Positions 11,373 through 41,890 of a stretch of 64,000 bases of DNA are shown here, in pieces. Made by a program: the position numbers and the translations under genes. Positions within the stretch are counted from its first letter, which is position 1. The number at the start of each line of letters is the position of its first letter. Source of the DNA: Puccinia triticina (lineage: Eukaryota > Basidiomycota > Pucciniomycetes > Pucciniales > Pucciniaceae); NCBI RefSeq assembly GCF_026914185.1, contig NC_070568.1, positions 3,554,001 to 3,618,000 of the forward strand, read 5' to 3'. The notes below the pieces were generated by a model. It was not told where the DNA came from, searched no databases, and was given only the letters and a program-made list of their open reading frames with translations.

Positions 11373-12220
11373 ACCTGCATATTCTATCAAAAGTACATGT
11401 TGCTAACCAAAACATCATCTCATCCTCCATGTCAAAAGAATCCACCAGGGGAGCTGTTCATCCAGCCCAAAACCGGCTCATGAAAGGCTGGAGAAATAGC
11501 TTTCTCAGATTTCCAAACATAAAACACTCAAGCCTCAGTGGTGCAAGTTCGCTGTTGAAAAGCTGATATGGACCGATTTGCAGGAGGCAAAGAGATGCTT
11601 GTAGAACAAACAAACAAATCTAGTCGCAGAGTAAATGATGCCAGGATTGTTTGTCAGCCAGCTTTGAGAACCCGACCCTCCACCTTGAAGCGTGGAGAGA
11701 ACCGCGGAAAAAGATTGGGTGCGCCCAGACCTTCTTCCCTGTCCAAGGTCCAAAAATTGGGTGTATTTAATAGAAAGAATGCTGTGGGATTTCCAAAATT
11801 CTACAGGTTGGACAGCCACAAGCTATGTAGTCTTGATCAACCTGTGCAATTTTATCCAAAAGAAAGCAGATCTTTCAATATGCAAGCCACCTCACTTTAC
11901 ATTAACTAGCCCCTGTGAAAAGGGTTGACTGGGCACACGTCCCTCCAGCCAAGGGTGTTTGAGGGTCTTCTCTGCTGGACATGCACCCACAGCAGCAGCA
12001 AGGGCCTTTGTTTAGTTTTGCAGGTCACAGGCGGATGCTCCTGATCTTGCCCCAAACTGACACAAGTCCCTCCCTGTGCTCACAGCACGCAAGCACCCTC
12101 CCACTTGCAGGAGGGACTGGTGCTGTTGGAATATATGCTTCAAGCCCCATTTGAGTGGCCAATTGGCTATATGATCTACTATTCAAAAATCACCAGTAAG
12201 ACCAACTGTGTGTTTAGCTC
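11373..12220. other. Intergenic sequence without recognised genes
   Basis: No supported coding frame. One short palindromic element of the AAGTCCCTCC...GGAGGGACT type lies at about 12064-12118 (see the repeat family at 52.9-55.5 kb). Confidence 0.5.
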
Positions 12221-12537
12221 ACACCGCATGCAAACAGCTGATGATTTTGCATAATTGTCATCATAGGGATTTGCGCGCGGGCTCAAAATGCATTTGAGGA
12301 CACCTGCGTGACAGGTCAGTCGCCACGCCTGTCAAAATTTGTCTGGTCAGGGGCCAGCCCACAAGCCCCAATTCCCACAAGCAACAACTTCCCACAACAA
12401 GTGACACATCAAGCGCACATCAAGCGACAACTTCCCACAACAAGCGACAGCCTGCCACCAATCAACACTTCAAGCCACGTAAGTTTATTTAACCCAATGT
12501 CATACATAAATTGTTATAAAATTCAAGTCAACCCGGC
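12221..12537 (+). repeat. Left terminal inverted repeat with leader exon
   Basis: Begins ACACCGCATGCAAACAGCTG and ends in TCAAGTCAACCCGGC. It contains short direct repeats of CAACTTCCCACAA. A splice donor, CAC|GTAAGT, lies at 12478/12479, with the matching acceptor CCACAG at 12571-12576 just outside the repeat, so a 5' leader exon lies inside it. Confidence 0.85.
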
Positions 12538-12601
12538 TAATGTACACACCCCCTCTCCCTTTCATCTTACCCACAGGTCCGCTTGGGGCGTCACCATCAT
12601 C

Positions 12602-15521
12602 ATGATAATCTGCACATGTTCAATATGTATCAAGTTCACGGTCACTGATCCCACCGGAACAAACATCAACGGCCGTTTCATGTCTGCTCAAAATAAAATG
12701 AAGCATCAAAGTGACAATCGCATTCGACATACGTCAATTGGTACCCAATTTCATATCTCGCATTAATCTACTGAACCATCACATACATCTGAATCTAATT
12801 CAGATTTGGCGAGTGAGAATTCAGCACAACTGACTGATGATTCCCCTACCACGCTTCAAAAGGCTCCAATAGATGGCAGGTTTTTGTTTATAAATCATTC
12901 ACACTTCTTAATTGAAGTTATTCTAACACATTTCGTCTTCTTTTTTGTAGAAATGATGGTTTTTTTTATATGCTGGCTACATCTCTATGGAAATGTTGGA
13001 TTGAAACAATGTCAGATCGCACAGAACCTGATCATGAAGATTATTGGCAACGCAGAAACAAACCCGCATGGACTCTCAACTATCCCTAAAGATCCTTGCA
13101 CAATTTCAAGAGACGACCTGTTGCCCAACATGTTTCAAGCTATACGAACCACCAGATTTGCCCAACCACTGCACCTATCGCGAAACTCCTAGGGCTTGAG
13201 TATGTGGATCACCTCTGTTCAAAGAAAAGCAATTATTTGTCGGCAATTCCCACCTTGGAAAATTCCAACTGTATCAGTTCCGCTTGCGCAATCGTCAGTT
13301 TTCCTCGGTCAGAATACCTGCGACAGTCTTTGTCAGCCAAAGTCTTTTGGACTGGCTCCGATGGTTTCTCAATCTTCCTTCAATTGAAAGTGAAATTGAC
13401 GCTTGGCAAACACACATTGAAAACACTTCAGGCAAAGCTCTCATTGACATCCAACAAGGCTCAGCTTGGAAAGGATTACGCTGGACTGAAAATACGGAAA
13501 CATCTAATTCACTCAGACTAGTTTTTAACCTCTTCGGGAATTGGTTTAACCCTACTGGAAACAAACTTGCTGGACGACAACAATCAATTGGGGTAATTCT
13601 TATGAATTGCATGAACTTTCCACCAACGATGCGAAACAAGACTCAATACACATTCCTATTGGGCATTACCCCAGGACCACAGTACCCAAGTATGACTACG
13701 ATCTCACACCTAATCAAGCCGTTGATTGATGAGCTGGTCCAACTTGCAGCACCAATTAAAATCAAAACAGCAGCTCATCCGGATGGCTGCTTGGTAGAAG
13801 TAAAGCTATTACCCGTTGTTGGTGATATGGGTGCAACACACAAGGTTTGTGGGTATGCATCTGACTCGGCCAATTACTTTTGCTCATGGTGTGGTGTCAA
13901 GAGTGACAATCGTAACCAAATGAAGATAGGACCCCCAAGGTACAGATCAGAAGTGCGAAGGTCTTCGAATGCGTGGCTGGCAACAAAAACACTGAGCGGC
14001 CAGGAGAAAATTCTACAAGGTACTGGCGTACAATACTTGGAGCTCAACCGATTGACTTGCCGTGATCTGGTCAGACATGTTGCATTGGGAATCTTGCATA
14101 ATTGGATGGAAGGTGTCCTGATGCATCACTTTCGCGAACGCTGGGGCTTTCAAACTCTATTGTTCAAGGAGGCAAAACGTCAAGGTGCTCAAGAGTCAAC
14201 TAGCAGAAAAAGACCACAATTGGATGGCTTACACGGACGTGAACCAGATGAAGCAGAGAGTGATGACGGGGATAGTAGCAACAATGATGTCAAGCTTGGT
14301 CAGGGGGTAAGAGGGTTGTTGACCAATGAAGAAATGGACTACTTTTGTGGTGCACTAGCCAAGGTGGTCCTCCCTACCAAGGTTGGCATCATTCCAAGCG
14401 ATTTGGGGAAGGCCAAGTGTGGAAAACTGAAGGTATCTCAGTGGTATACGCTCTTCGTATATGTCATTCCACTTATCATACCCAAGATGTTTTTCAGCAA
14501 TGTTACAAAGATAAAGCAGCACCCCAATTGCTCCCTCATCATGCAGAACATCTCAAATCTAGTTCAATGCACCCACTTAGTCTGTTCAAGGACAATCCGA
14601 CCCTCCCACATGGTCCAATTTAATCAAATGTACAATAGGTACACATCAACTTTGGAGCAGATTTATGAAGACCTAGTTGTCCAACCAAGCCACCACTACG
14701 CATTGCATGTCCCTGAACAAATGGCCTTGTGGGGGCCATTAGGTGGTGTTGCTGAATTTGCAGGGGAAAGGATGATTGGGAAGCTGAGGACTTTGAATAC
14801 CAATGGGCGACTGGGTGAGTGATTCCTCTAGCCGTGCTTGATTGGTTGTACTGATGAGCACATTTTGCCTGTTGTAGGTGAATTGGAAGGTACATTAATC
14901 CGCCGCATCTCTCAGATCCAAAAACTCAAGGCAAACAAGGATTTTCAGAATTTTCTTGCGCCACAGCTCAATCCAGAAAGAGAGCGAGGGCAAGGGAGGT
15001 GTGTAGCTGTGGACAATGCACTATACACTTGGGTGCATTCCCATGCCTGCTTGGTTGACCCAATGGTCCGCCGATTTGACGAGTTACCCCACCCACCTGA
15101 CGCCCAAGTGTTATCATCCCGGATGTCAATCATGGCCACGTGGCACATCTCGGGAAAGCTGCATGTGGAGACACAAGCACCAAACAACGTGATTGGATGG
15201 AAAAAAACAGAAATTGTTGAATACGGGTTTGTTAGAGATATTGTGGGGTATGACCACCCAGACCAAGGGGCATGCATGGTGCTTAACGTTCAACCCATCA
15301 AAAACAAGTTTTGCAAGAAAGCAACCAACTCCTCTGCCAAATTTTGATTTTGGCTCTATTGTATGAAGGCAGTTGTTGGGACAGTTGCATCTGACCACCT
15401 CATCATCCCGGTTGAAGATGTCCAGTACGTGGCTGCCTATCGGATGCTTCCACCCGGTACATTTGGCTTGCCCTCACAGGGAATTATCTCAAGCCCAGTC
15501 AATCATTTGGGGGGGGGCTAG
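12602..15521 (+). pseudogene. Plavaka/CACTA-like transposase
   Basis: After the leader intron (12479-12576), ATG at 12602 opens a frame with a CTCSICIKFT Cys motif. Further motifs are those of basidiomycete Plavaka transposases: CCPTCFKLY, PVVGDMGATHKVCGYASDSA, NYFCSWCGV, HNWMEGVLMHHFRERWGF, SHHYALHVPEQ, GPLGGVAEFAGERMIGKL, and near the end YVAAYRMLPPGTFGLP. Introns at 12880-12950 and 14815-14877 splice cleanly; the second joins in phase. The frame is broken by TAA at 12764, a frameshift near 13090, TGA at 13197-13199 and TGA at 15345-15347, with similarity continuing afterwards. The longest intact block is 13284-14814. The final stop is TAG at 15519-15521. Assignment to the CACTA/Plavaka group is confident; activity is excluded. 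Confidence 0.8.
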
Positions 15522-16069: not shown

Positions 16070-16755
16070 TTACTTTTGATAGGCCTCAACGCCTGGACAA
16101 GCTTCAAGCTCAATGCCTCCATTTGTCTTTCCAACCATAGATAACCCCGCCAAAGTGCTCTTCATCTCAATAATAGCCTTCATGTACGCAGCGGCCCAAC
16201 AGTAAGTGGTGATTGTTTTCTCAAGGTGAGTGATGCTTGAATTGTTGAAGTGTTTGTCGTAGCTTGCTTGTTCCACCATTGAAAACGGTGCACCCTTTTT
16301 GATCCAATTTCGAAAGTCTTCCTCAGCGTGGCCGAGAGCCATTTTTTGAAGCTCAGTGACTGCTGCCTCCAATTTCTTCACTCAATCAATATGTTCCTCC
16401 TTGAGCCACCTGAGTTTGTCGTGAGTTAATGTGTAAGACCGTTTCAAGAATTTTCCCATGTACCACGCCGCCTTCCAGATATCAGAGTCTCTGACCGCCA
16501 TCTTGATGTTTTTGAAGGCCAGTGCGTGTTCCTTGTCAGCCGTGTTGGTGATTCTGAGATTGTCACTCATTGCAGTTCTGTCTTGCTGTCCAAAAAACAC
16601 ACCGGTGTCACCGCGTTTATTCTGTATGCGGTTCTTCGGAAATATTCCACCTCATTCCCTCACACTCCATTTCTGTGTGGGCTCCAGGGCCTCGCAGCAT
16701 TGCACAGCAAGACCCACAGCTTTGTGCAAGGCAACATTGCTTGATTTTCTGTTTC
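16070..16755 (-). pseudogene. Unknown transposon-associated gene fragment
   Basis: One frame runs from about 16745 to a stop at 16070 and is cut only by TGA near 16636 and TGA near 16382. It reads protein-like throughout (for example AVGLAVQCCEALEPTQKW, then DNLRITNTADKEHALAFK, then LEAAVTELQKMALGHAEEDF). I do not recognise a domain. The sequence is charged and helical, with no signal peptide or membrane segment. It sits tail-to-tail with the transposase inside the inverted-repeat pair, so it is probably a companion gene of the element or a captured gene. The start is not visible; upstream sequence at 16750-16900 is AT-rich. Confidence 0.45.
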
Positions 16756-16926
16756 ATTTTTTCTTGCTATCATATTTTGAATTTCACACTTTCACTCTTG
16801 ATCAGGGTACTAAGTTTTGTAGATGAGGTTTAATGACAAAGTAATAGGAAAAAACAACTTTTTAAAAGCCCAAAAAAGCCAGAAATGGAGTCAGAAAGTA
16901 ACATGGACAAACCACTTCACATGAGA

Positions 16927-17989
16927 TCATTCGTAATGTAAATCAAGGTCTCTATCAACAATAAAGTCAAAATCTGCAATATGCTTTTTTTCAACATCTT
17001 CATGAATCTCATTGTTCTCAATTTTATCACAGATGTTAATCATTTTTTTGGCAATCTGAAGAGATATACCAGTCTTTGTGAATTCACCATTTTTGGTTGG
17101 CCTCAATGTCCCGTGAGTGTGTAGTCGTTGCGAAAAGATCATTTGAACCATCATGTCGGGCTTGAAGTGGACGCCAAACCCAGCTTGCGGAAATACAAAC
17201 TGACCATTCTGCACATCAGAGCCTAAGGCGCTTAGACCGGTGGACTTCAGCGTTGGAATAACCAATAAGAAAGCAAACAGGAGACGTTCATCGTCCCTGC
17301 GGTCCTTGTGCGGAAGGTGAAGGTAAGATTGCTGGAAAAGCACTTGCAACTGAGTGGTGTGTCAAGATCAGGGATTTTGGGCTCTGAAAATCCTGGTATG
17401 CTGTGTTCAATCATGAATCGACGGTTTCGGAAGAGAGCAACTTTCCAATTGGCTGAAACAAGTCCCATAAAATCTTGTTGGCACGGTTGGCATCTTGCAT
17501 GTGTTGTTTCCATTCTTCGAGGTTTTCCTTAATAGCCTTAGAGTTGACATAGTGTCCAACGATTTCTAGCCTAGTTGAAGATTTGCGCCATCCTATGGCC
17601 CACATGAAGCCCCCGCAAGATCGAGATTCAGATCCAACAGCATAGACAAACATTTTGGACTCCTCCAGAAAGGCTAGAAACCAGTCCAAATCACGACGCT
17701 TATCCGCAGAAATATCCTTAAGATCAGTGAAGACTATATCAGCCACAACGGTTTGCTGTTTATCTTTCGTGAGCTTCTTGTTGAATACGCAAACATGCCC
17801 GTTATCATAGAGGCGGAACTTTTTGGGATCAGTAACAACCGAGATGGCAGCATCCATTTCTGCACTTGTTGGGTTGCGCGCGAGTATTGGCTCTGTAGAA
17901 GGTGGGGGTCCCCCATTCTTGAACTCGGCCTTCTCCAATTTCCGCTGATCCTTTCGCTTATTCAAATCAGCCGTGATTGCTGGGAAGAG
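16927..17989 (-). pseudogene. Unknown transposon-associated gene, frameshifted
   Basis: Two good blocks lie in different frames. The first, 17965-17415, begins near LNKRKDQRKLEKAEF and includes KKFRLYDNGHVCVFN and GGFMWAIGWRKSSTRLEIVG. The second, 17349-16927, includes FVFPQAGFGVHFKPDMMVQM and HGTLRPTKNGEFTKTGISLQ. Between them (17450-17350) the third frame reads RFMIEHSIPGFSEPKIPDLD, so at least two frameshifts are present. I recognise no catalytic motif. No ATG start is obvious; TGA codons precede the first block near 17990. Its position beside the Plavaka transposase suggests an accessory gene of the element. Confidence 0.45.
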
Positions 17990-18059
17990 ATCTCAAAGTG
18001 CTCAAAGTGGATCAATCTTGACATCAGTTGTACAACCTCCAGTTGCGGGAGGTAAGTCC

Positions 18060-18860: not shown

Positions 18861-19478
18861 TCAGGAAGGCAGCCTCATCAGCACCTTTGCATAGCTTACA
18901 TTAGTACTATTGTTGCTATCCATTTCCCTTCCAAGCTCTATTCTCCCCTTTGAGTAGTTCCACACCGTGGCTGCGGTGTGCCTCGCTCCTTGCTTCTTCA
19001 TCCAATTACGATTCCTCTGGCGTTGCCAGGTGGCTGTGCGCTGACTAGAAAAAACCATCAATCAATTCCATGCAGCTAGAGACATTGTTAGAGTTTTGAC
19101 TTACATTAATTTTTCCTCTTCTGTCTTGGGAGCCTCCTCTTGATTCGGGAGTTCTAGCTGCTCAGCCTCAGGCCTCATTGGAACAAGTCCCTCACCATTT
19201 TCAGATGATTCACCAGCACTAGATTTGTTGTCCGAGGCAAGATCAAATCCACCATCACTCAATTCCTCATCCCCTTCCAGATCGATTTCTCCATCACTAG
19301 ATTCCTTGTTGTCCCACGCAAGATCAAATTCTCCGTCACTCAATTCTTTGTCCCCATCTAGATCAATTTCTCCATCACTCAATTCGTCAGCCAGGCTAGT
19401 TAGAGGAGAGTCAACCCTCAATTCGTCAGCCAGGCTAGTTAGAGGAGATTCAACCTCATTCTCGTTCAGGTGGTCCAT
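18861..19478 (-). CDS. Hypothetical acidic-repeat protein (185 aa, 2 exons)
   Basis: Model: complement of 18861-19044 and 19105-19478, with a 60-bp intron (GTAAGT to TTCTAG). The total is 558 nt, exactly 186 codons, and the splice joins in phase. The N-terminal part has a duplicated block (DSPLTSLADEL and its near copy) and four imperfect acidic repeats of the form LSDGEIDLDGDKE / LSDGEFDLAWDNKE. The C-terminal exon is basic (QRTATWQRQRNRNWMKKQ) and ends MRLPS. No signal peptide, membrane segment or known domain is seen. The acidic/basic layout would suit a nuclear or chromatin-binding protein, but that is a guess. It lies within the inverted-repeat pair and is not obviously broken. Confidence 0.55.
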
Positions 19479-19911
19479 CGTGTCTTAGCAGTCAATGACA
19501 GGGAAAAAAAGCAGTTAGGGCAGGGGAGATAAAGGAGTCATGGAAAAAGCTTTACTCACTTAGTTTATCGGGTGTGGAATCTATTCAGCAGAACCACAAT
19601 TATCCTACAAGCTAGTTCACAAGTGAGAAAACGATATATATTTGATGTTAGTATTTAATTTATTAATATAAGGACCCCACCCCTGCTGAACTATGATCAG
19701 CCAAGGTCAACAACAACCCGGTTACTCTTGCGTTTGTATTAGCGTTGAGCGGGCCTGATTGTGGATGACCCCAGCTTTCACATAGTGCCAGAGGAGCAGG
19801 ATATATGATCAAAGGGCACTCACTTTGTGAAATGACAATAATCAACAGTGGAGTTGCGCACAAACAGATCCTACAAGCAGCTAGAATCATTACAAAACAT
19901 GCAATCAATTA
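19479..19911. other. Upstream flank of the acidic-repeat gene
   Basis: No supported gene. A short open frame on the - strand (19663-19908) lacks protein-like features and was not accepted. Confidence 0.4.
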
Positions 19912-20270
19912 ACCAATCAATCAGTTGATTTGTTGGCCCAAGTAAATAAATGAAAGGATAGCTCACACTGATCGGGTGGGGGTTGAGCAGCTTGGGCTCG
20001 GCTTGGATGGAGGAAACGGTGATTCTGTAATCAATCGACTCATCAATCAGTCAATTCGTTGGCCCGAGTTCATAAATCAAGGGATAGCTCACACTGATCG
20101 GGTGGGGGTTGAGCAGCTTGGGCTCAGCTTGGATAGAGGAAATGGTGATTCTGTAATCAATTGACTCATCAATCAGTCAATTCGTTGGCCCGATTACATA
20201 AATCAAGAGATAGCTCACACGGATCGGGTGGGGGTTGAGCATCTCGGGCTCGGCTCGGATGGAGGGAAGG
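19912..20270 (+). repeat. Tandem repeat, three units of about 126 bp
   Basis: TTCGTTGGCCCGA-type sequence (TTTGTTGGCCCAA in unit 1) recurs at about 19930, 20057 and 20183, each followed by GATAGCTCACAC and GATCGGGTGGGGGTTGAGCA. Units differ by a few substitutions and the third degenerates toward its end. No gene runs through it. Confidence 0.85.
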
Positions 20271-20467
20271 AGCTGGGGAGTCTGCAATCAAGCCGCCGGT
20301 TGGGCTGGCTGGCTGGGCAGATCGGAAACCGCGATGACAAGGAGGGGGCACGAGACGCACGTCCGATTGAAAAGTGGTGAAAACAAGTGCTGTCGATGTG
20401 GTGGGAGGTGGTGGGGCTGTCTTAGTCCACGCTTGGATTAAGTTCAAAGTTTGAACTCAATGCTGTT

Positions 20468-20496: not shown

Positions 20497-20689
20497 GTTA
20501 CTGGAAATTCAGTGTTCCAGACCGCCTACAACCTCTCAATCCTCAACCGCTCCGTCGGCTGGATGATCTTCGAACTCACCGACCTCACGCTCACCTTTGA
20601 TCTCAACTCCTTGGCCAGAGAAGCCGGCGCAAACGGTCTCACTGTGTTCTGAACTCGTGGTAGGAGGGGGTGCGACATGCTTTTCATTG

Positions 20690-22080
20690 ATGATCTCTGA
20701 TTCTGATCTGGGCCTGACTGAACACACTGACGCGATCTACAAACACTATGAACAACTAAATCAAATGTCTTATGGGACCTTTGATCCCTCCCCTGAAGAT
20801 ACTTGGGACCAAGTTCAAGAACTGCCTCGGATTGACAAACCAACGAGCCAAGCCTGGATCGATGTTGTTTTGGCTGCTAAGCCTGTGTTGTTTGATACTC
20901 GCAAGGAGATTGGAGAGTGTGTCAAAAGTTGGACACCTGACTATCTCAAGCTGAAGTGTGGAAAGAAAAAATGCTCGGTTCATCTCTCCAATCCTCTCTC
21001 TTCCACCACTTTAAGATGGCACAATAAGAACTTCAAATACAAGACAATGAGCTTTATGGAGCTGATCGATCGAACAACCGGCGCCGCAACTTTTGGCGGC
21101 GAGAACAAGGATCACCGGATTGTTTACCTTCGCTCATTATCTAACTCCCCCAAACATCCCTCTAATTTTCATACCTACTTCCCCAAAATCTTTCTTGATT
21201 TTAAGATCCCTCAAGCCGTGAATGATTATATTATTGATTGTGACGCCTTCTTTTTGAGTGTTCTCCGGATTTCTGGGGCTGATATGGGGTAAGGTTTTTT
21301 ATGTGAAAAATAAAATTGAATCCGCATGTGTATTGAATCGCATTGTCTTTTTCACAATGGTGGCCAGTCTCTGGGCTCACTACAATACATACGACAATAT
21401 CCTTGTGCAAGTTCAAGGGAAAAAACTGGTCAGGCTCTGGCACCCAAGGTAAATTCAGACCCGCATCCAATTCCTTGGAATTTCCATGTGGCAGCTAACT
21501 GTATCTCGATCAACCAACAGGGAGATTACCAATCTGTATATCGAAGGTAGTTCATCACGTATTCCTAGCTTTGACCCGCCTGATTTGAATCGGTTCCCAC
21601 TCTATTGCACGTTGCATCCACTGCTTTGTGTCTTAAACGTACGTCCAAATCATCTGCGCCAGCCGCTTGTATTTGAGGGATAGTTGATGATGAAAATGGG
21701 GCTTTGTTTGACGGTATGAAAAGTCAGGAGATAGCTTATTTACACCCGCAAACTGGATACACGCCGTCCAGACGCTAGAGCCGAGCATCTCAGTCAACAC
21801 GTTTTTCAAACCCAATCGCCTCTCAGACTTTTACGAGTCTAAGAAGAAGGACATATGGGGCAATGTCGATCTGGCACCTTACAACAAGCTCCACGAGCGA
21901 CTGTTCCAGGATATCTTGGCTGCAGCTCCTCATCAACGCTTAGCAGACCCACCTCGCGATCAGAACGACTCACTCGGCTCGCGCTTTAACTGCTTACCCA
22001 TTGATCAGCGGCAATTTTATTTCAAAAAAATTGCCATCGACTTGATTAGACATGCTGATCAATTGTCCCAATCCTTGTAA
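20690..22080 (+). CDS. JmjC-domain protein, TYW5-like, with altered Fe(II) ligand
   Basis: Model: 20690-21288, 21368-21448, 21521-21638 and 21724-22080. Introns of 79, 72 and 85 bp have GT/AG ends and keep phase, giving about 384 codons from the first ATG (MISDSDLGL). An upstream exon is possible, since the frame is open back to 20597. The order of motifs matches tRNA-wybutosine-type JmjC hydroxylases: YLRSLSNSPKHPSNFHTYFP, then DAFFLSVLRISGADMG, LWAHYNTYDNILVQVQGKK, and GDSLFTPANWIHAV with PSISVNTFFKP. In that family the second block carries an HxD iron-binding pair, usually HYD; here it reads HYN. The distal His (WIHAV) is kept. An Asp-to-Asn change would be expected to weaken or abolish Fe(II) binding. 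It is either a decaying copy, cargo of the surrounding transposon, or a derived protein. The function (tRNA hydroxylation) is only inferred from the family. Confidence 0.6.
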
Positions 22081-22425: not shown

Positions 22426-23479
22426 TGTGAGAACTCCTTTGGGATGGGTTGGCAGTCCTTTGAGGGGGAAATAACAATATGATATTCCAGCTAAGTAATA
22501 CTACTGTTACGGGTGGTTTGAAAGACCTGCCCCTCTATTATACTACAGAATTCTGACAACAAATTTATTTATTGTTGTGGCGTGACTTTTATGACGGAGA
22601 AAACTTGTATGTAGTAGTCTCTATCAGACCTAGATCAGTTTTAACAAGTACAAGATGCGTATACAACCTCTATATGGCAAGATGGGCAAAGAATATAATC
22701 AAGTGAGAATATGTTTTGTTGGGTTTTTAATGATTTCAGCAGAGAGAAATGATGATGGAGTGTGGTATGAGATTTCTATGTTAATGTATGATGACTGTGT
22801 CTTCTGTGATGATAGCAAAAATGATGACTGGTGACCACTGAGCTGGGGTGCCTGGGTGATGATGGAAAAATGGTGGGAGGAGGGCCTCCTTATATATTCT
22901 TTTCTGAGTTATTTTTGCTGGTGAGGGCTGCACTCGAGGCATTTCTGCTGGTGGTGACCCTGTGGATTGCACTGCCTTCTGCAAGGGGTGCATAACTTAA
23001 ACTGATGTTCCGCATGACCATGTGTGATTTGTACTTTTTAAGGCAAAGTCCACCTAGGTTGGTTGCACTGCCAAAGTGGAGGCTTTCTGACCGCATGCAT
23101 CGATGTAAGGTCCGCGCAAATCTGTTGAGTTGTTGAGTGGAGGCCTAGTCGCTGCAGTTTCCAACGCGCAGGTTGCGTGAGGTGATCTGTAGCTAATAGT
23201 GGAGGCCTGCCTAACTAGTAAATCTAACTATACTCTTCTATATATGCATGCCTTTTATGATTTATATGACTTTCCACCTGGGTATGGCCTGTACTAAACC
23301 TATAATTGTAACTAACTTCTAAACTAAAAGAGCTAGCTGGGTAGTTGAAGTGAGTGACTAGGGTTAAGTTTGTATGTAGAATCTATTTCTCTAATAATAT
23401 TCTATCATATGCTAGTATTGTAGGCTGTAAGTTGAGGTTTTGACAGTTTTGTTGCACGCAACAGATCTGGATCACCACA
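22426..23479 (-). repeat. Gypsy 3' LTR (1054 bp)
   Basis: Matches 38004-39241 with about three substitutions, and lacks the MITE carried by the other copy. It is the 3' LTR because the genes read on the - strand; the polypurine tract abuts it at 23480. Confidence 0.95.
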
Positions 23480-23750
23480 TCCCCCCCCAAATTAATGCTG
23501 TCCACAGCATTCCTAAGCAAGCAACAAAAAACTGTTGAGTCCTTCCCACTAAGAAATTTCTAGTCCACTGATGTTGTTGTAAGTCCTTGACAATTTTGTA
23601 CAAGTTTCCGCGCTTCTTTCCTGTTCCTTGTGTTTTTCCAATTGGCTACTTGTGTTGCATTGAGTCAACTCCAAATCGGTATTGTATCTTCCGATCTATA
23701 CATCCTTTCTCTATCTCAAAATCTAGTATATGTATGTCCTATGTAAACCT

Positions 23751-28233: not shown

Positions 28234-28244
28234 GAATGGGTTTT

Positions 28245-32517: not shown

Positions 32518-33460
32518 GGTGTGTATGGTATATCAATTTTTGATGAAAGTTTTTGTAGTTATAGTTTTGATTCAGCTGAAAGGCTGGTTTGCAGTTTTTG
32601 GTCATACAGGACCATAAAAAAAATCCTAACCCCATGGTTTCTTTTCTTTTTCTTTTCTCTGCTTCCAATCAAAACTTGTGACTTAACCTGCGCCGCGCGC
32701 CCGGATCCTCTTGTGTGCAGCTTTCACAGAGATGAGGTGTCAAGCGAGCTGCGTCGGCCCGTCGGCGTAAGCCCGCTCCAAGCTCCACAAGCCCGCCCAA
32801 TCTCTCTCTGCCGCTGTGCCCTCTCTCCGCCGCTGTGCCCTCTCTCCGCCGCTGTGCCCTCTCTCTGCCGGCCAAAACTGTGAAGCCGAGGCTCTCTAGT
32901 ACTTGCATCGCTTCCAGCTTTCCGTTGCTGTTTTTGGTAGGTATTGACGCTGTGCTCGCCTTGTTTCTCATGTTACTAATGTTACTTTCCTTTGTTCTTT
33001 CTCAGGCTCCAATCGGTTTAGCTAATGTTGAATGTATTCTTGCATGTCATATGAATTAACGGCCTCGATAATCATGCGACTTCTCCAGGTCCTCAGTGAG
33101 TTCCTCCTGGTTCTGCTGCCACTCGGCAGAGCTACCTGCTGATGTCTTGATTCTGAACCACCATACGACATGGCACGAACGGTTAACGGGCCCTCCACTC
33201 GACCTTCTACCTCATTTGGTTGTTCGCTCCCTCGGCTCTGCCTGATCACGTACGTTCACGCCTTCTGGGACCGACTGTTGGTTCCACCGCGTGCTAATTC
33301 AACCATCCTCCTGTACGAACTCTGAACAACGTCGCCTCCGAACTTCTGCTACCGGTGTGCCCCACCCGACTAGTTGTTGCCTACCCTGCTGTCCAGCTGG
33401 ACATAAAAGCAACCCTGGTGTGCTGGTTCTTCCCTCTTCACTCCGCTATCGCTTCACAAG

Positions 33461-34310
33461 ATGGCTGACCACCCTGAACAATAAATCATCTCCTCTGATG
33501 ATTCCGCATCAACCGTTTCTTTTGATGCTCCTTATGTCGCGGACACCCCGTCCCCAGTATCTGATGATGATGATCCTTATTCTTACCATAACGTTTTTAT
33601 GGCCTCGTCCGACGAGGCCAGTGACAATGATATCCGCTCTGATGATGATGATCAAGGTATGTTGTGCTGTTATCTTTGTACCTATTGTGTCAGCTGTTGA
33701 ATTTTGCATTTCCATACATAGACCTCGATGTCTTGGCCGCTCATGCCGCGATTAACAATCACTTCGATAACCTTGAGTCTGACATACTAAACTCTAGTGA
33801 CCAGGATGTCAACGAATCTGATAACAACACTTCCGATCAATCTGATATCCCGGGTAGGTTTCCTGTTGCAGCCTATTCTCTTATATGCATGCGTTGCTTA
33901 TCTATAATATGCTCTCTCTTTTTCTTAATTTGACATTAGTTCCTCTCCTCGACGAGATGCGCGACTCCTCCCCGGATGTTCAACCTTATCAGGCTCATCC
34001 AGGGTCTCCCCGCGGGTTCCCGCGTTATAACTACGCGGATTACACTGTAGAGACGCTGGTAGATCCCCGCCTCCGTTACAACCCCTTTTGTTTATTTCCG
34101 CGACATCAGCTTCCCACCTTCCCCCCGGCGAGACCCCCTATGTTACCTCGCCAAATGTTTGAGGCATCTTTCCGTGACCTAACCATCCGCCTCAAAAATC
34201 TTCTAACTCGTACTGCTCAAGGCCATACCGTCTATAATGAACTCAACTCTGTTGAGTTCATTCTGAACGCTGCCAATGATTGGTATTATGTATACCAAGC
34301 GTTTGAGTTC

Positions 34311-34341
<31 letters not shown>

Positions 34342-34400
34342 CAAATGGAATGCTGACTTTGGTTTTACCTTTTCTTTTACTTCTTTAGACATGGTGTTGA
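33461..34400 (+). pseudogene. Intron-bearing unknown gene inside the gypsy element, early stop
   Basis: Model: 33461-33656, 33722-33853, 33940-34289 and 34389-34400, totalling 690 nt (230 codons). Introns of 65, 86 and 99 bp have GT/AG ends and join in phase; the last contains a long T-run. Codon 8 is TAA (33482-33484), so translation from this ATG stops at once; the next in-frame ATG is near 33599. The protein is acidic and Asp/Ser-rich at first (SDDDDPYSYHNVFM), then has a conserved-looking core: YNYADYTVETLVDPRLRYN and RQMFEASFRDLTIRLKNLL. I recognise no family. It reads opposite to the retrotransposon, between gag-pro and pol. A spliced gene cannot survive a retroviral cycle in sense orientation, but antisense introns can, so it may be carried cargo or a separate insertion. 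Confidence 0.5.
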
Positions 34401-34775
34401 TAATTAAGAAAAAAAAAACCCCTGTTCCCCGTCTGGCTAGAAATCTTGTGGAAACAAAAAAAACTATCAGCTTTCTACTTATAAATGTTAGTGTTAGCTA
34501 AAAAAAACCCTGTCAGCAACAATGGCTCCTGCTACCATTGTACTGGTATATTCTTTCCTCTCTCTGGTTATTGATTACCTATATAGAAACTGAACCTCAG
34601 AGAAAAAAAAATAAAATGAAATTACTGTATCCCTTCTTAATGTAGAGTGACGTTAGTATACAAGTGCTGTCTCAATACCTTTGAGAGCCACAAAAAAATT
34701 CTGGTATAGTAATCCTGAAATAGTTGAAAGAGATGATAAGCAAAGAAAATACTTGGGTGAATTTGGGTGCATTTT

Positions 34776-35303
34776 TCAGATGAAGACCCGCGCCCTGCCA
34801 TACAAGGCGTTAACTTGGTATTGAGGATTCTTTAACACATGTTTTTTATACCACTTCTTTGCGCCTCCACCATACAACTTGTACCGGATAGCCAAGCTGA
34901 CCGGCCCGTATCTTGATCTCCAGGGACCAACCTTCAAGTATTGTGCTCCGCCTTTTGATGTCAAAATTTGCAGAAAATCTAAAGGATCTAACCCGCCTCC
35001 GGGCAATTCCTTCAACCAGGCGGGTAGTCTTTTAAAAACCCTTTGCTGCCCGTACCACGTGAAAACTTCCTTGAATTGTGGCTTTATTCGTGTTTCTGCT
35101 ATATAGCAGCCCCAAGCGTCCTCTTCCGGGTCCAGATTTGTTCCCCACTCTACTGAGTTAATCTGATGATAAGTGTTCCAAGAGTTGTCATCCAGCTGTG
35201 CTGCTCCAAGCTCCAATGCCCAATCCACTGGTTCTGGTAATGTTATGTTCCACCTATCCCCATCCATCATTTCAAAGGGAAGCAATGACTGATAATGCTC
35301 CAT
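34776..35303 (-). CDS. Unknown gypsy ORF downstream of Gag-protease (175 aa)
   Basis: Starts MEHYQSLLPFEMM immediately after the gag-pro TGA and in the same frame, so the two could be one reading frame split by a single stop. Tryptophan-rich blocks (WALELGAAQL, WNTYHQIN, WYGQQRVFKRL, WLKELPGGGLDP) look like an ordered domain rather than a shadow frame. I do not recognise it. It ends GRARVFI at 34776, next to the 2.2-kb segment that separates it from pol. It may be a C-terminal extension of the Gag-protease polyprotein made by readthrough. Confidence 0.6.
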   Translation of the reverse strand: MEHYQSLLPFEMMDGDRWNITLPEPVDWALELGAAQLDDNSWNTYHQINSVEWGTNLDPEEDAWGCYIAETRIKPQFKEVFTWYGQQRVFKRLPAWLKELPGGGLDPLDFLQILTSKGGAQYLKVGPWRSRYGPVSLAIRYKLYGGGAKKWYKKHVLKNPQYQVNALYGRARVFI

Positions 35304-37988
35304 TCAACTTTGCATAGATTCCTCCTCATTTTTGGGTTCCTCTGCCTCCCAGTTTGTTACTTGTAACGCACAAACTTGTCTTAACTTGGGTGGCTCCTTG
35401 TGCCATCCGGGAGCATTTGGTAAACATATAGGGATGCAAAGTCTTCGTTGTTCTGAGTCCATAAAGCTTAAGATTTCTCCCTTCTGGTTGGAGAGCTCCA
35501 GTCTGATGTTATGATCCGCTAGAAAAGGCCTTCCTAACACGGTATGCACCAAACCTTTGACAATAAAGAAGTTTGCCAAGTGCACATATCCTGGAAATAC
35601 GGTTACAGGTATATTTTCCGCAATTCCAATGATTGGTGTGAAATGCCCTCCTATTCCTCGTAATCGCATAAATACTTCCGTAGTTAAAAGGCCTAGCTGG
35701 TCTGCAAGATGGTCAGGAATAATATTCATCTCTGCACCAGTATCAACTAAAGTTCTGATTTTCCGGTTGTTAATGGACATGTCCACCATGCCGACGGGAC
35801 AAGCATACGTGAGCCTTGAGTCTTTATCATCCTCTTCCATTTCCAAACTTGTGGAACCATTAAATTTGACGTTGTTTACCCCCTTCTCTGCTGGGTCCGC
35901 TTGACCTTCACCAAGCGTTTTGAGAAAGTGAGGGGCAATCTTCAAAATCTCCTCCAGTGTAAGCGTGTACGTCTGACGAAAGAATTTGTTTCGGATTGAC
36001 CTGTCCATTTGTCGTTCTGGTTGCTCTCTTGGGTTTTCTGGCCGGAGATTCTTGGTCTTTGCCAATGGTTCTGTGACTGGTTTAGACCTGACAGGGACAA
36101 TGACACTCTCATCTTTGTTTTCCTCCATCCACAATCCAGGAAAGCTTTTCTGCCTACTGGGTTCTTTTTGAGCTTCTTGCGCTTTGGCTTTGGGTTGACT
36201 TTCCCTCTCTGCATCCTTGTTTTCAACAGGCTGGCTTCCAGAAGTCCCATTTTTTTCCTGTAGTCGCTGTGACTTCCGGAGGCCAAATCCTAAATTATTC
36301 TCCAGATCGTCCTCCCCCACATTAAACTGTGGTGGAAACCATGATCCCCATTCTTCGACTTCCGCTATTGCTGAGGTTGCCGCCTTCTCTCCCTTACCTG
36401 TCTCTGAAGAAGGTTTCTTCTGTTCTTCCTCGAACCGCCTGACCAAATCCCTCACTGAGGAGTCTTTATCCATTATTATTGGCTGGTTGTTGGGATAGTA
36501 GTATGTTCCTTGGTGTTTGTATACATTCCGAACTTTCAGGTCTTGCTGAAGGTATTCACACTGAGTTACCAAGTGTTTTTCTTTACAATAAAAACACTCT
36601 AAAGGACCCAATCTTGCCCTCCCTTCGGGAAGTCCTGGTGATGATGGTCTGCCAAAATGTGGAGGAACTTGCCGCTTCTGGTTCTCTAATGCTATGGTTA
36701 ACTTTGTAATTTTCTCCTCAAGTTCTTCTCTGGAGGAGGAGGGCTCCTGTATTTTTACCGTCTTTCTTGCATTGTCTTTGGGAACCGATGCCTCATTGTC
36801 GCCGTCAAAATCCACAATAACCAGTGCTAGTTCCACATAGTGCTTAAGGGTTTTTAGGTTTGGAACAATATTCCTCCCATCTTTTGTTGTATGCAGCTCC
36901 TTTGCGTGGGCTAACTCCTTAGTAACCTCCTTCTTCAGCTCTGTGGAAAGTGCCTTCCATAAGGGGTCCCCACTTTCCAAGTTCAGGTTTCTATATTCCA
37001 TCCTTGTAAAGTAGTCCATGATTTCTTTGTAAGTGCCAATAAATTTCTTATACTCTTGTCGGGTACTGATTCCGCCATTTGCTTGAGCCATCTGCACCAG
37101 TGTTGGTATTGCGTCCTCCTTATAGCGTCTTAATGGAGTAGCCCGACCCCATTTCCTAATCATTTCCTTCTTGAGGAGTTCCCAGTCACCACTCTTGTGT
37201 CCTTCCATCTGTTCAATGGTTTTGCTGATTTTTTGGTTATGAATTATCAATGGTAGCTGGACTGCAACATCTATCCCTCCTGCTTTTTGTAGAAAGGCCA
37301 CCTTCTCTACCCGCTTGATAAATAATTCAACCTCGGTCCCATCAAATTGTAAGTTGGTCTTTTTGGTGTCCAGGACCACTCCTTTCTGCTTGTTTGGGAG
37401 ACTGATATCAACTCTTTGCCTGGACTGCTCAATTGCTGGGGACTGAGCAACCGAATTCAAAACAGAGTTGAATCCTGCCCCAATGGTAGTGTCCCCTCCT
37501 GGGGTTCCCCTAGTGTACGGTGTCGAAGTTACAAATCGCAAAGCTGTCGGTCTGTGTACCGGTGTCTCCGGTAAAGGTACATTTCGTGGGGCTCTGTCCT
37601 GTCCAAGAAGAGTCTGTACCAGATCTCTTAACTCAGCTACCGAATTTTCCATCCTTGAAATCTGCTCCCTTTGCTCTTGAATTATATTTGACTGATCCAT
37701 AGTTGATTCTTTGTGATTAGACATGTTGATACTCTGCTTCTGATCCCGTTCAATCTTCTCCACGACCTCCTCAAGTGATTCGATTTCTTGTTCCGTAAGA
37801 CTGCCGTTGAACCAAATCCTTCTCTGTTTGCTTGCTGTGTTCCTTCTGTCGCCAATGGCAGACTGGCCGTAATGCTGCTCGCTTGAATGTGCTGGAGGGG
37901 AATCTTCCTGATTCTGATCCAGGATGTGAGTTGTTTCCGCTTGGGTTTTGTTAATCTGTTGCTGATCTTTCTGGAAGTTGACAGCCAC
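35304..37988 (-). CDS. Gypsy Gag-protease (about 894 codons)
   Basis: One open frame begins inside the 5' LTR edge with no clear ATG there (GTG at 37988); the first internal ATGs are possible starts. It has an N-terminal Gln/Asn-rich stretch and a coiled-coil-like segment (EQREQISRMENSVAELRDLV), then a retrotransposon Gag domain (LFIKRVEKVAFLQ to MDYFTRMEYRNL). A short zinc knuckle CFYCKEKHLVTQC follows near residue 460; its spacing is C-x2-C-x3-H-x4-C, one shorter than usual. The aspartic protease active site VDTGAEMNIIP is near residue 748. It ends with TGA directly followed in frame by the next ORF. Gag coats the RNA and the protease cuts the polyproteins. Confidence 0.85.
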   Translation of the reverse strand: MAVNFQKDQQQINKTQAETTHILDQNQEDSPPAHSSEQHYGQSAIGDRRNTASKQRRIWFNGSLTEQEIESLEEVVEKIERDQKQSINMSNHKESTMDQSNIIQEQREQISRMENSVAELRDLVQTLLGQDRAPRNVPLPETPVHRPTALRFVTSTPYTRGTPGGDTTIGAGFNSVLNSVAQSPAIEQSRQRVDISLPNKQKGVVLDTKKTNLQFDGTEVELFIKRVEKVAFLQKAGGIDVAVQLPLIIHNQKISKTIEQMEGHKSGDWELLKKEMIRKWGRATPLRRYKEDAIPTLVQMAQANGGISTRQEYKKFIGTYKEIMDYFTRMEYRNLNLESGDPLWKALSTELKKEVTKELAHAKELHTTKDGRNIVPNLKTLKHYVELALVIVDFDGDNEASVPKDNARKTVKIQEPSSSREELEEKITKLTIALENQKRQVPPHFGRPSSPGLPEGRARLGPLECFYCKEKHLVTQCEYLQQDLKVRNVYKHQGTYYYPNNQPIIMDKDSSVRDLVRRFEEEQKKPSSETGKGEKAATSAIAEVEEWGSWFPPQFNVGEDDLENNLGFGLRKSQRLQEKNGTSGSQPVENKDAERESQPKAKAQEAQKEPSRQKSFPGLWMEENKDESVIVPVRSKPVTEPLAKTKNLRPENPREQPERQMDRSIRNKFFRQTYTLTLEEILKIAPHFLKTLGEGQADPAEKGVNNVKFNGSTSLEMEEDDKDSRLTYACPVGMVDMSINNRKIRTLVDTGAEMNIIPDHLADQLGLLTTEVFMRLRGIGGHFTPIIGIAENIPVTVFPGYVHLANFFIVKGLVHTVLGRPFLADHNIRLELSNQKGEILSFMDSEQRRLCIPICLPNAPGWHKEPPKLRQVCALQVTNWEAEEPKNEEESMQS

Positions 37989-38003
37989 TGTTGGGACACG
38001 AGA

Positions 38004-39241
38004 TGTGAGAACTCCTTTGGGATGGGTTGGCAGTCCTTTGAGGGGGAAATAACAATATGATATTCCAGCTAAGTAATACTACTGTTATGGGTGGTTTGAA
38101 AGACCTGCCCCTCTATTATACTACAGAATTCTGACAACAAATTTATTTATTGTTGTGGCGTGACTTTTATGACGGAGAAAACTTGTATGTAGTAGTCTCT
38201 ATCAGACCTAGATCAGTTTTAACAAGTACAAGATGCGTATACAACCTCTATATGGCAAGATGGGCAAAGAATATAATCAAGTGAGAATATGTTTTGTTGG
38301 GTTTTTAATGGTTTCAGCAGAGAGAAATGATGATGGAGTGTGGTATGAGATTTCTATGTTAATGTATGATGACTGTGTCTTCTGTGATGATAGCAAAAAT
38401 GATGACTGGTGACCACTGAGCTGGGGTGCCTGGGTGATGATGGAAAAATGGTGGGAGGAGGGCCTCCTTATATATTCTTTTCTGAGTTATTTTTGCTGGT
38501 GAGGGCTGCACTCGAGGCATTTCTGCTGGTGGTGACCCTGTGGATTGCACTGCCTTCTGCAAGGGGTGCATAACTTAAACTGATGTTCCGCATGACCATG
38601 TGTGATTTGTACTTTTTAAGGCAAAGTCCACCTAGGTTGGTTGCACTGCCAAAGTGGAGGCTTTCTGACCGCATGCATCGATGTAAGGTCCGCGCAAATC
38701 TGTTGAGTTGTTGAGTGGAGGCCTAGTCGCTGCAGTTTCCAACGCGCAGGTTGCATGAGGTGATCTGTAGCTAATAGTGGAGGCCTGCCTAACTAGTAAA
38801 TCTAACTATACTCTTCTATATATGCATGCCTTTTATGATTTATATGACTTTCCACCTGGGTATGGCCTGTACTAAACCTATAATTATGGTGTTCAAAGTT
38901 GGTTTGCATAATTTTATGCATGCATAAATCATAAAATCATAAAATCTTTTTTGCAGGGGATATGACTGTCTGATTATGTGATACAAAATTTCCTCACCAA
39001 AATATTTTTATGATTTTATGATTTATGCATGCATAAAATTATGCAAACCAACTTTGAACACCATAAATTGTAACTAACTTCTAAACTAAAAGAGCTAGCT
39101 GGGTAGTTGAAGTGAGTGACTAGGGTTAAGTTTGTATGTAGAATCTATTTCTCTAATAATATTCTATCATATGCTAGTATTGTAGGCTGTAAGTTGAGGT
39201 TTTGACAGTTTTGTTGCACGCAACAGATCTGGATCACCACA
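38004..39241 (-). repeat. Gypsy 5' LTR, carrying a MITE (1238 bp)
   Basis: Equal to the 1054-bp LTR at 22426-23479 plus a 181-bp MITE and its 3-bp target duplication. It lies next to gag on the - strand and so is the 5' LTR. Confidence 0.95.
38885..39065. mobile_element. 181-bp MITE inserted in the gypsy 5' LTR
   Basis: Ends are TATGGTGTTCAAAGTTGG and its mirror, with long subterminal pairing built on GCATGCATAAATCATAAAAT. The target duplication is AAT (38882-38884 and 39066-39068). The other LTR (near 23300) is the undisturbed empty site. The same element occurs at 45895-46075. Confidence 0.92.
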
Positions 39242-39485: not shown

Positions 39486-41467
39486 CTACCTAAAACCAAT
39501 TATCGGCTTAATACATTTCATCTTTGTCATCTTGATCCTTGCCATCATCACCCATGATTTCATCCTCCAGTTGTTCTTTGTCACCATTTCTTCCTCATAG
39601 TCCTCATCCTCGTCCTCATCATATACATTTTCCCAGTCGCCCTCTGCCACAAATTGATCATCATTTTCCTCCAGGGGAGCCAGATCGATAGAATCCTCTT
39701 GTACTTCTTCCTCTTCACCATCACCTTCATCCTTGTTATCTTTGGGGATGTCAACCAGTTTGTAAAGTATCAATGCGGGTGCCAATTTGTTGCGGCTGAA
39801 CCTGGAGTCCGATAATGCCTCTTCTGCATTGTAGTTTGGGTGATTTTGAGGCAAGAGAGACTTTGACGGATCCAAAAGAAAGGCCACCCGGGTCAGGTCC
39901 GGTATTTCACGCTGTTGGGGTGTTGGTAAGTTACCCAACCAGCAACGCAAATAGAAGTCCAAAGGAAGCTGTCTCGGAACTTTTGGAAAGATTGATAAGA
40001 CTGGTTCCCTGGGTACCCTGCAAGGCTTGCTTTGGGAGCTCTTGCCGTTTGCAATAGCAACTTCATTCATCACACTGTCCAATCGTCGGAAGAAGATGTT
40101 GGCAGCTTTTGAGCGAAATGGTAGGGTCTTGACAACAAAGCATTTCCCAGCTTCATCCCATTCGTCATTGCTGTTTGCCGCAACATCCTGGATGATGTCC
40201 TTGTACCGTTTGGGAAAGTCGTTCGCCACAGCAAACTTGTAACGCGCCTCTGCAAGCTGTAAAAATTAAGTGAGCCAGAGCCAGGACCCAATTGGTAATG
40301 TAAGAGGAATGACTCACTCGAGATCGCTTCCTTGCCGCGTTTTTGACCATTACGGTTTCAGCGTGTTTACCAGGCTCCTTGTTCTCTTTGGAGAACTTAT
40401 CAAGCTGGACATGGTGCACATAGTGATTGTATGCCCGAATGAAGATCACCATGTTGTCCTTGTATTTTCGGTTGAAATTCATAAAATCGTAAGCCCCGGA
40501 CATGGCAATTTGCCGGAAGATGTTGAGAGCTGCAATACGACAAGCCAAGTTGTACAAGCTTTTGGGTCCTTCTTCAAGGTTTGGACACCAGATACAAATC
40601 CCTAACTTTGCGAGATAACCGTGAATGTATGCAATGTAGCTTTCCTCAATGTGGCCAAAGCTTTTTCCAACTTTGATTCTGCCTGCCCGAGCATCTCGTA
40701 AGGTCTGTACGTCAGATTCGGCAAGTATACTGGCGGAGTTTGAATCTTGGGCAAAGCGTTCAAAGTCGGCAACATTGGAGAATCTTGAACAAAATTCGGC
40801 AACCAGGGCGGCATTGATGACGGGGGGGACAGAGGCAGTTTCAAGCAAACCCCACAACAATCGGATATGAACAAAAAGACATTCCTAGATGAAAGCACCA
40901 TCACGTCAGGTTGATTCAGATGATGAGGAAGATAGCTTAATTACATACTTTGGTTGCCTTGAAATCATCCGGGAAGTCGTCCGTTATCATCTGATTTGGC
41001 TTCTTCTTGGAGGCTGATGTGGATTTGTTAGCCTGAGCGGTAGTGCTTGGTCCAGCCCTCTTGGGAGTAGTGGATGATGGAATGCTTGAGGCAGGTTCTG
41101 ACTGGGCACGGCGGAATCGCTGACTTGAGGCAGTATTTGTAAGGGCTTGGGCTCTTCTGAGATTTGGTTGTGGAGTTGGGGGTTCTACGGCAGGCTTGGG
41201 GATTGTTGTGGCTCAGCGGTTGCTGGAGTTCACGGCCATTGGTTGTGCAGTTGTTGGTGTTGGGTTGGAAGATTCGGCATTGCCCATTTTGAGCTGCTTG
41301 ACTTTGTGTTGAAGCTTTTCAAGGGTACCCTCGACTTGGGCCGCATGACGAGAAAAGATTGTTTCAATGATATTGTCAAGATGCGAAAATAAGTTATTTT
41401 CGGAGACAGAGTCCATGTTGGTGTTGACGGGGGCAGATGGGTCCACTGGGATCATTTGTTCTGACAT
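39486..41467 (-). pseudogene. Unknown transposon-associated gene driven from the right inverted repeat
   Basis: Model: complement of 39486-40256, 40318-40884 and 40949-41467, 619 codons in phase. Introns of 61 and 64 bp have GT/AG ends. A further leader intron (41479-41559) starts inside the terminal repeat, and the ATG (MSEQMIPVDPS) is 11 bases after its acceptor. TGA at 41213-41215 interrupts the first exon; the preceding codon context fits a lost CGA. The N-terminus has a coiled coil (EGTLEKLQHKVKQLKM). The middle contains FCSRFSNVADFERFAQ, SYIAYIHGYLAKLGICIWC and AALNIFRQIAMSGAYDF. Near 39600 the acidic tail moves to another frame, so a late frameshift is likely. I recognise no known domain. 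It lacks transposase motifs and may be a regulatory or cargo protein of the element. Confidence 0.6.
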
Positions 41468-41500
41468 GATTGGACGAGCTGTGGGTGGATGTGTGCACAG

Positions 41501-41818
41501 GCCGGGTTGACTTGAATTTTATAACAATTTATGTATGACATTGGGTTAAATAAACTTACGTGGCTTGAAGTGTTGATTGGTGGCAGGCTGTTGCTTGCTG
41601 TGTCGCTTATTGTGGGAAGTTGTTGCTTGATGTGTCACTTGTTGTGGGAAGTTGTCGCTTGTGGGAATTGGGGCTTGTGGGCTGGCCCCCAACCAGACAA
41701 ATTTTGACAGGCGTGGCGACTGACCTGTCACGCAGGTGTCCTCAAATGCATTTTGAGCCCGCGCGCAAATCCCCATGATGACAATTATGCAAAATTGTCA
41801 GCTGTTTGCATGCGGTGT
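41501..41818 (-). repeat. Right terminal inverted repeat with leader exon
   Basis: Inverted copy of 12221-12537. The leader donor GTAAGT (intron start at 41559 on the - strand) is conserved, and its acceptor lies at 41479. The outermost bases continue to CACTG on the - strand, ending at 41823. Confidence 0.85.
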
Positions 41819-41890
41819 CAGTGGTATAAGAGCAGCTCTCATGAATGTAGAAGGTCGTGGGTTCAAATCCCACCACACACAATTCTTTTC
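41819..41890 (+). tRNA. tRNA-like sequence abutting the transposon end (Met-like, degenerate)
   Basis: A perfect T-arm, GTGGG-TTCAAAT-CCCAC (41857-41873), gives a B box GGTTCAAATCC. GTGGTATAAGAGC upstream resembles a D-arm/A box, TCTCATGA resembles a CAT anticodon loop, and CTTTT at 41885-41889 could terminate polymerase III. The anticodon stem does not pair well and the acceptor 5' strand appears replaced by the transposon end, so it is probably a broken tRNA gene or tRNA-derived repeat. Confidence 0.35.

Follow-up and report, generated by a model that had tools for sequence, protein, structure and literature searches.

DNA transposons residing within tRNA genes have been described for Dada (PMC3706591, PMC8869645), some families of which insert at tRNA nucleotides 8-13 in box A, in TAGCTC followed by AG (PMC8869645). 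Dada target site duplications (TSDs) are 6-7 bp long, and Dada-U6 and Dada-U1 have been described without terminal inverted repeats (TIRs). In Puccinia, EnSpm elements with CAC..GTG termini, a 3-bp TSD, a Plavaka-related EnSpm transposase and a TET/JBP gene are known, and related families are reported from several species, P. triticina among them (PMC12730594). Helenus elements, terminal-repeat retrotransposons in miniature (TRIMs) with a tRNA-like sequence in the long terminal repeat (LTR), form many families in P. triticina (PMC10886601). Here we analyze a 64,000-bp stretch of the P. triticina genome (C11:3554001-3618000, hereafter the window), which contains a single CACTA/EnSpm-type transposon at positions 12222-41817, bounded by two inverted repeats of ~317 bp. 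We consider it very likely that this is one CACTA/EnSpm transposon inserted in box A of a Helenus-type solo LTR, that it combines a core gene pair with cargo, and that the group of elements sharing its TIR type prefers box A of tRNA-like sequences. In the open-licence literature, with subscription journals and supplements outside the scope of the search, no paper joining CACTA/EnSpm elements with tRNA targeting was found; tRNA-gene targeting by DNA transposons thus appears to be described there for Dada and not for CACTA/EnSpm.

One transposon nested in a solo LTR

The termini of the element are CACCGC..GCGGTG, and a perfect 3-bp TSD (TCA) is present at both ends. The surrounding solo LTR (TGTTGG..CAACA) has its own 5-bp TSD, GGTGC, intact on both sides, and the GGTGC and TCA duplications agree across 29.6 kb. 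From outside to inside, the layers are host DNA, the solo LTR, the CACTA element, a gypsy and a copia retrotransposon. The CACTA element measures ~12.8 kb and was afterwards split by the nested gypsy.

A search of the P. triticina assembly (122.8 Mb in 18 contigs, the single genome searched in this study) with the left repeat yielded 18 matches. Four were nearly full length, namely both ends of the window element and a pair of ends on contig C17 that are 92-94% identical to the left repeat; the other 14 were partial and mostly represented ends of short relatives. The C17 ends delimit a second copy (C17:2087920-2101409; 13,490 bp), which is colinear with the window element, lacks the gypsy, and is inverted relative to its LTR flanks in comparison with the window element. 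Across the gypsy site it runs directly from window position 39247 to 22428. An annotated homolog of a window open reading frame (ORF), PtA15_17A172, apparently also lies on C17. The first-pass annotation of this DNA had suggested that the two repeats might be ends of one element, had left the link across 22.4-39.2 kb unproven, and had proposed a genome-wide search with the 318-bp repeat for copies with both ends and the same gene order. Such a copy exists on C17, and together with the nested TSDs it demonstrates the link. No pairing of the transposase-side repeat with a nearer partner came to light, nor did the 39.5-41.8 kb part prove to be a separate element, the C17 copy pairing the same ends in colinear order. 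The protein PtB15_11B325 is related to the window sequence (99% over 34% of the query), which suggests that the other haplotype of P. triticina may carry the insertion as well.

The boundary features are as follows (window positions).

12119..12123: 5-bp TSD GGTGC of the solo LTR, left, directly before TGTTGG; same as the copy after CAACA
12124..12221, plus strand: left half of the Helenus-like solo LTR, the 5' tRNA-like part up to box A; LTR-internal-LTR units occur elsewhere
12219..12221: 3-bp TSD TCA of the CACTA element, left, inside box A (TTTAGC[TCA]GTGG)
12222..12537, plus strand: left TIR with leader (to 12478) and GTAAGT donor (12479)
22426..39241, minus strand: nested gypsy LTR retrotransposon holding a copia element; missing from the C17 copy
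41501..41817, minus strand: right TIR with leader (to 41560) and GTAAGT donor (41559)
41818..41820: 3-bp TSD TCA of the CACTA element, right, identical to the left copy
41818..41908, plus strand: right half of the Helenus-like LTR, with the remaining tRNA-like sequence and box B GGGTTCAAATCCC
41909..41913: 5-bp TSD GGTGC of the solo LTR, right, directly after CAACA

The gypsy is flanked by ACGG (22422-22425) and ACAG (39242-39245), with one mismatch in 4 bp. The earlier statement that it has no target duplication therefore needs qualification, as these tetranucleotides may be a duplication, if an imperfect one. The copia-type element inside the gypsy (23742-28556) has RVT_2 and integrase domains and 300-bp direct repeats that are 99% alike. 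The right LTR of the gypsy also contains a 195-bp palindromic miniature element (38874-39068), a second copy of which (97% alike) is located at 45884-46078.

The Transposase_21-type transposase, the CACCGC..GCGGTG termini and the TCA/TCA duplication place the element in EnSpm/CACTA. CAC..GTG termini with a 3-bp TSD are classed as EnSpm in PMC12730594, which describes the EnSpm transposase by a DDE triad with C(2)C and H(3-4)H motifs. Of the earlier label, a Plavaka/CACTA-like giant transposon, the CACTA-like, giant and two-ended character was borne out. The Plavaka part was not, as the window ORF had no Pfam match to the Plavaka transposase domain (PF18759) at E ≤ 1 and the termini and TSD are of EnSpm type, not the TGT..ACA or CATCA..TGATG of Plavaka (PMC12730594). 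One distant relative (P0029) showed a weak, below-cut-off Plavaka match.

The flanking repeat is the target, not the element. It has an LTR of about 191 bp with TG..CA ends, an LTR-internal-LTR spacing of 384-388 bp, and TSDs of CCCCA (locus L033) and GGTGC (window). As a small LTR element with a tRNA-like sequence in its LTR and a 4-5 bp TSD it corresponds to Helenus, and we call it Helenus-like without assignment to a named family. The terms "EnSpm" and "DNA transposon" do not occur in the main text of PMC10886601. At C2:3012575-3013375 (L034/L035), Helenus-like LTRs form a tandem array with 388-bp spacing and an uninterrupted tRNA-like box A.

tRNA-like box A sequences at the insertion sites

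A pattern search for the TIR tip detected 180 ends (92 + 88), as compared to none with the reversed pattern. Of these ends, 100 were listed, and 117 listed ends from two listings were used for pairing. All 27 pairs closer than 15 kb were examined, which together with the window element gave 28 sites. Identical 3-bp TSDs were found in 27 of them; at the exception, C10:6871382, the final base of the left flank is seemingly missing. When the sites are rejoined, the usual placement of the TSD is TRGC[NNA]RYNGG, and in 22 of the 28 the best box B candidate is 34-53 bases away (one of these 22 matches at only 7 of 11 positions). Combined box A+B scores of at least 19, 20 and 21 were reached by 24, 22 and 15 of the 28 rejoined sites, respectively. 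The corresponding fractions were 2.6%, 0.4% and 0% for 20,000 random window positions, and 22.9%, 7.9% and 0.7% for shifted positions in the same sites (n = 280), a control that remains partly within tRNA-like sequence. A cruder, fixed flank rule, which was used with a background in place of a looser, uncontrolled one (66 of 100 flanks assigned to box A), matched 61 of the 100 listed 13-base flanks (36 of 68 distinct ones) vs a background of 16%. Among the 28 sites, about 12 distinct targets can be told apart, the majority of which are tRNA-like.

In the Helenus-like LTR, exact left halves with CAC directly after them (TGTGTTTAGCTCACAC) occur 24 times, and all 24 run on as CACTA-type tips (CAC, five bases, then GCA or ACA; 15 distinct 10-base tips); these sites were judged by their tips only, and the matches with two mismatches were mostly noise (control counts 26 and 29). 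Uninterrupted LTR sites numbered 72 exact and 129 within two mismatches. By this rough ratio, for which patterns of unequal length were used, about a quarter of the exact LTR sites are occupied. Sixty LTR-half loci contained 66 uninterrupted sites, not all distinct because the loci overlap, and 10 distinct sites with inserts shorter than 1.5 kb. Nine of these 10 inserts start with CAC at the site and the tenth (L042) 11 bases further on. A compact relative of the window element (C2:7462959-7469563; 6,605 bp) also sits in box A of the same LTR type, with the TSD TGA. Three further large elements, of 6.7-10.9 kb, are located at C3:3242288-3248938, C14:180002-190889 and C17:2707800-2717337; their TIR tips are related, and the 3-bp TSDs on their two sides match.

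From these sites we infer that the TIR group, with or without a transposase gene, integrates preferentially in box A of tRNA-like RNA polymerase III (Pol III) promoters, with 3-bp TSDs. Several observations weigh against this conclusion or narrow it. Part of the box A+B score stems from tRNA-like surroundings, as the 7.9% of shifted positions scoring at least 20 shows, and six of the 28 sites score below 20, four of them at 18, a level reached by 15% of random positions. The cruder flank rule fails for 39 of 100 flanks. Eight of the 28 sites are the same Helenus-like LTR, and the targets are thus not all independent. On the same target sequence the insertion point shifts by 1 to 4 bases between copies within box A; the target is therefore a zone and not one bond. 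ARAGORN called a tRNA in only 11 of the 28 rejoined sites, and these were mostly odd calls, so many targets look like tRNA-like repeats rather than normal tRNA genes. The survey covers the TIR group in one genome, with the distant EnSpm lineages present there (mostly 27-33% identity) outside it. Finally, dN/dS between the two full copies ranged from 0.36 to 1.08 over 12 segments, with little sign of recent selection.

Two other possibilities for the site itself were rejected. A normal tRNA gene was found by neither ARAGORN nor Rfam in the window, where the sequence is split; once rejoined, the site proved to be an LTR repeat, and its tRNA call was odd. Target mimicry within the TIRs, as in Dada, was examined in 13 ends (120 bp each), where the best box A match was 10 of 12 positions in twelve ends and 11 in one; matches of 10 and 11 are attained by 70% and 9% of random stretches, respectively.

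The transposase, probably together with a conserved partner gene at the right-hand end (gene 2), would excise the element and integrate it with a 3-bp duplication. Integration would be directed into box A, either through reading of the DNA or via factors bound there, and we infer that the site preference arises at this step. A narrower form of this reading, which is a sub-case and not exclusive of it, holds that the transposase prefers a short motif of about TAGCNNARTGG that box A supplies, with Pol III factors uninvolved. Consistent with it, the insertion at C9:4933894 is in a box-A-like stretch that lacks a good box B, and Dada has been argued to read DNA sequence (PMC8869645). The shift of the insertion point, which amounts to as much as 4 nt within one target sequence, the acceptance of diverse box A variants, and the box B candidates 34-53 bases away in 22 of the 28 sites argue in the other direction, and we give recognition of the motif alone slightly less than an even chance.

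In its tRNA-like targets, the window group occupies the box A position that Dada hits in tRNA genes. It belongs to another superfamily, its 3-bp TSD and ~317-bp CAC..GTG TIRs set it apart from Dada, and many of its targets are tRNA-like repeats rather than established tRNA genes. A second, unrelated superfamily converging on the same box A nucleotides would make the roles of DNA sequence and Pol III factors testable by comparison. The nesting would also add a layer to rust genome growth, namely transposons living in the promoters of other transposons.

Convergent genes and cargo

From left to right, the element contains the transposase (plus strand), a TET/JBP-like gene (minus), an acidic-repeat region, a captured cupin fragment (plus), the gypsy, and gene 2 (minus).

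12577..15347, plus strand: transposase gene region, with ATG 12602 after the presumed leader intron, ORF 13200-14819 and a further ORF 14832-15344
16073..17992, minus strand: TET/JBP-like 2OG-Fe(II) dioxygenase gene (ORFs 17414-17992, 16930-17361, 16385-16651 and 16073-16381)
19104..20277, minus strand: acidic-repeat ORF 19104-19484 and 126-bp tandem repeats 19900-20277; length strongly different between the two copies
20653..21978, plus strand: captured 3' part of a host Kelch-cupin gene (Cupin_8/JmjC domain)
39489..41478, minus strand: gene 2, the conserved second gene, with ATG 41467 (ORFs 41216-41478, 40940-41212, 40168-40884 and 39489-40265)

Transposase and gene 2 read towards each other from the two TIRs. 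The inverted-repeat arms are 96% (12218-12414/41625-41821) and 94% (12436-12551/41487-41602) identical, and aligned TIRs are 91% alike over 340 columns, ending near 12537 and 41501. In agreement with the first-pass annotation, which had noted a shared leader and GTAAGT donor in repeats of ~318 bp, the same leader end (CCAC) and donor (GTAAGT) are read in both arms; acceptor-like sites lie outside the repeats at 12575-12576 (left) and 41480-41479 (right, minus strand). The first ATG past the left acceptor begins a peptide with a CxxC-type start resembling that of the transposase in the compact C2 element, and the ATG past the right acceptor opens gene 2. Judged by these signals, each of the two genes apparently starts from a common leader inside its own TIR. 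In the C17 copy the left leader donor is retained, and the right one is mutated to AT. MuDR likewise has a convergent gene pair, driven by promoters located in its two inverted repeats. It belongs to an unrelated superfamily, and the window TIRs additionally hold the common leader and donor.

The transposase ORF 13200-14819 matches Transposase_21 (PF02992) above the Pfam cut-off (E = 3.9e-8) and DUF4218 below it (E = 1.8e-4). One P. triticina protein shares 98% identity with a piece of the transposase, at 53% query coverage, and 541 bp from about position 15010 are missing in the C17 copy. For gene 2, no Pfam family was found above the cut-off, and the predicted structure is unusable as a fold (mean pLDDT 44). 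Its last ORF (39489-40265) contains an acidic stretch. The frame of the 618-codon gene reported earlier at the right repeat is broken in the window copy by an in-frame stop (41213-41215), unless the stop lies in an intron.

Genome-wide, gene 2 gave 11 matches at nine loci, including the window and C17 copies. Six loci are within 20 kb of the six best-scoring transposase relatives (38-44% identity; 80 of 364 candidates were scored, and the resulting list is a lower bound), and at one locus (C1:6608879) there is no transposase nearby among those listed. The compact C2 element contains the convergent transposase/gene 2 pair and no TET or cupin match. Because its homologs adjoin the six best transposase relatives and the pair is all that the 6.6-kb C2 relative has, gene 2 is probably a core partner gene and not cargo; the core would consist of the Transposase_21-type transposase and this partner. 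The lack of a Pfam family and of a usable structure would also suit a passenger gene, which we consider improbable given this association and the homologs in other rust genera (relatives occur in Puccinia, Cronartium and Austropuccinia). The earlier proposal that extra genes lie between the ends holds; the TET/JBP gene and the cupin fragment are cargo, and the right-hand gene probably is not. The conserved partner is a concrete candidate for a targeting factor. It is conceivable, if doubtful, that targeting of Pol III type-2 promoters arose in a CACTA clade separately from Dada but at the same box A nucleotides, with gene 2 as a dedicated partner recognizing box A or factors bound to it and Helenus LTRs serving as a large, harmless landing pad in rusts.

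The TET/JBP-like gene had gone unnoticed in the first-pass annotation. Two of its ORFs match PF20515 (2OG-FeII_Oxy_6; E = 6.7e-20 for 17414-17992 and 1.7e-17 for 16930-17361), and the ORFs 16385-16651 and 16073-16381 are perhaps its 3' part. The TET ORF has 82 matches in the genome. Among this clade they lie near C11:5859692 (35% identity) and beside C1:6608879 (75%), with none in the C2 element. The C17 copy of the gene is interrupted. Searching PDB sequences with the TET ORF produced no useful match. The TET-like enzyme would lift cytosine methylation from the element and so oppose methylation-based silencing, as proposed for rust elements (PMC12730594). "tRNA" and "JmjC" do not occur in the main text of that paper, the supplements of which may hold the target, the captured cupin or the partner gene.

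The JmjC protein proposed earlier as a gene of its own turned out to derive from a host Kelch-cupin gene, of which the element has captured a 3' piece. This piece and C1:167500-168852 share 93% identity (1353 aligned columns); the match begins inside the gene, and its far end lies beyond the C1 stretch compared. The cupin ORF has three matches in the genome, namely the two element copies and C1:168189-168854, where it is part of an open frame of 634 aa. The apparent host donor (C1:167500-169300) is a Kelch-cupin gene resembling wybutosine-synthesis genes, with weak, below-cut-off Kelch-type matches upstream of the cupin domain. A Melampsora relative of the cupin has a source name beginning "tRNA wybuto", and its best solved-structure match is human C2orf60 (E = 8.4e-58), which we take to be TYW5; from its architecture, the C1 gene is presumably TYW4-like. 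NCBIfam gave no match for the cupin relatives. A tRNA-modification gene fragment within a tRNA-targeting element is probably a coincidence. A role of the cupin in targeting was rejected, as the C2 element occupies the same site without a cupin match. Host gene fragments that include introns are also carried by Pack-type CACTA transposons; here, the capture is in a large element with its own transposase.

Copy decay and neighboring features

Both full copies are decayed. In the C17 copy, both the TET region and gene 2 have suffered insertions, and the transposase has lost a single base; the window copy has the in-frame stop of gene 2 and is split by the gypsy. Judging selection on the cargo from this pair was abandoned, as the dN/dS range (0.36-1.08) was uninformative. 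Such decay, and the fact that many sites are repeats in which insertion does little harm, could also mean that the elements insert anywhere and that only copies in harmless tRNA-like repeats persist. Harmless sites are plentiful in P. triticina, however, with ~77% transposable element content (PMC12210899), and survival would not explain why, across about 12 distinct and mostly tRNA-like sequences, insertions fall so close to box A, to within a few nucleotides; we regard this explanation as very unlikely and favor a preference at integration. Two separate elements or a chimera, with 39.2-41.8 kb as a complete separate element, would fit the imperfect gypsy duplication and ends that are 91% alike, and are excluded for practical purposes by the C17 copy spanning the junction and the nested GGTGC and TCA duplications.

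Elsewhere in the window, units of about 172 bp are tandemly repeated at 2517-3600, and pieces of hAT-type transposase, with BED zinc finger, hAT dimerisation and RNase-H domains, occur at 9046-10975. A large inverted repeat (367 bp, 94%) surrounds 159-bp repeats at 49475-50891, and an ORF with a RhoGEF domain at 60531-61676 is probably a host gene.

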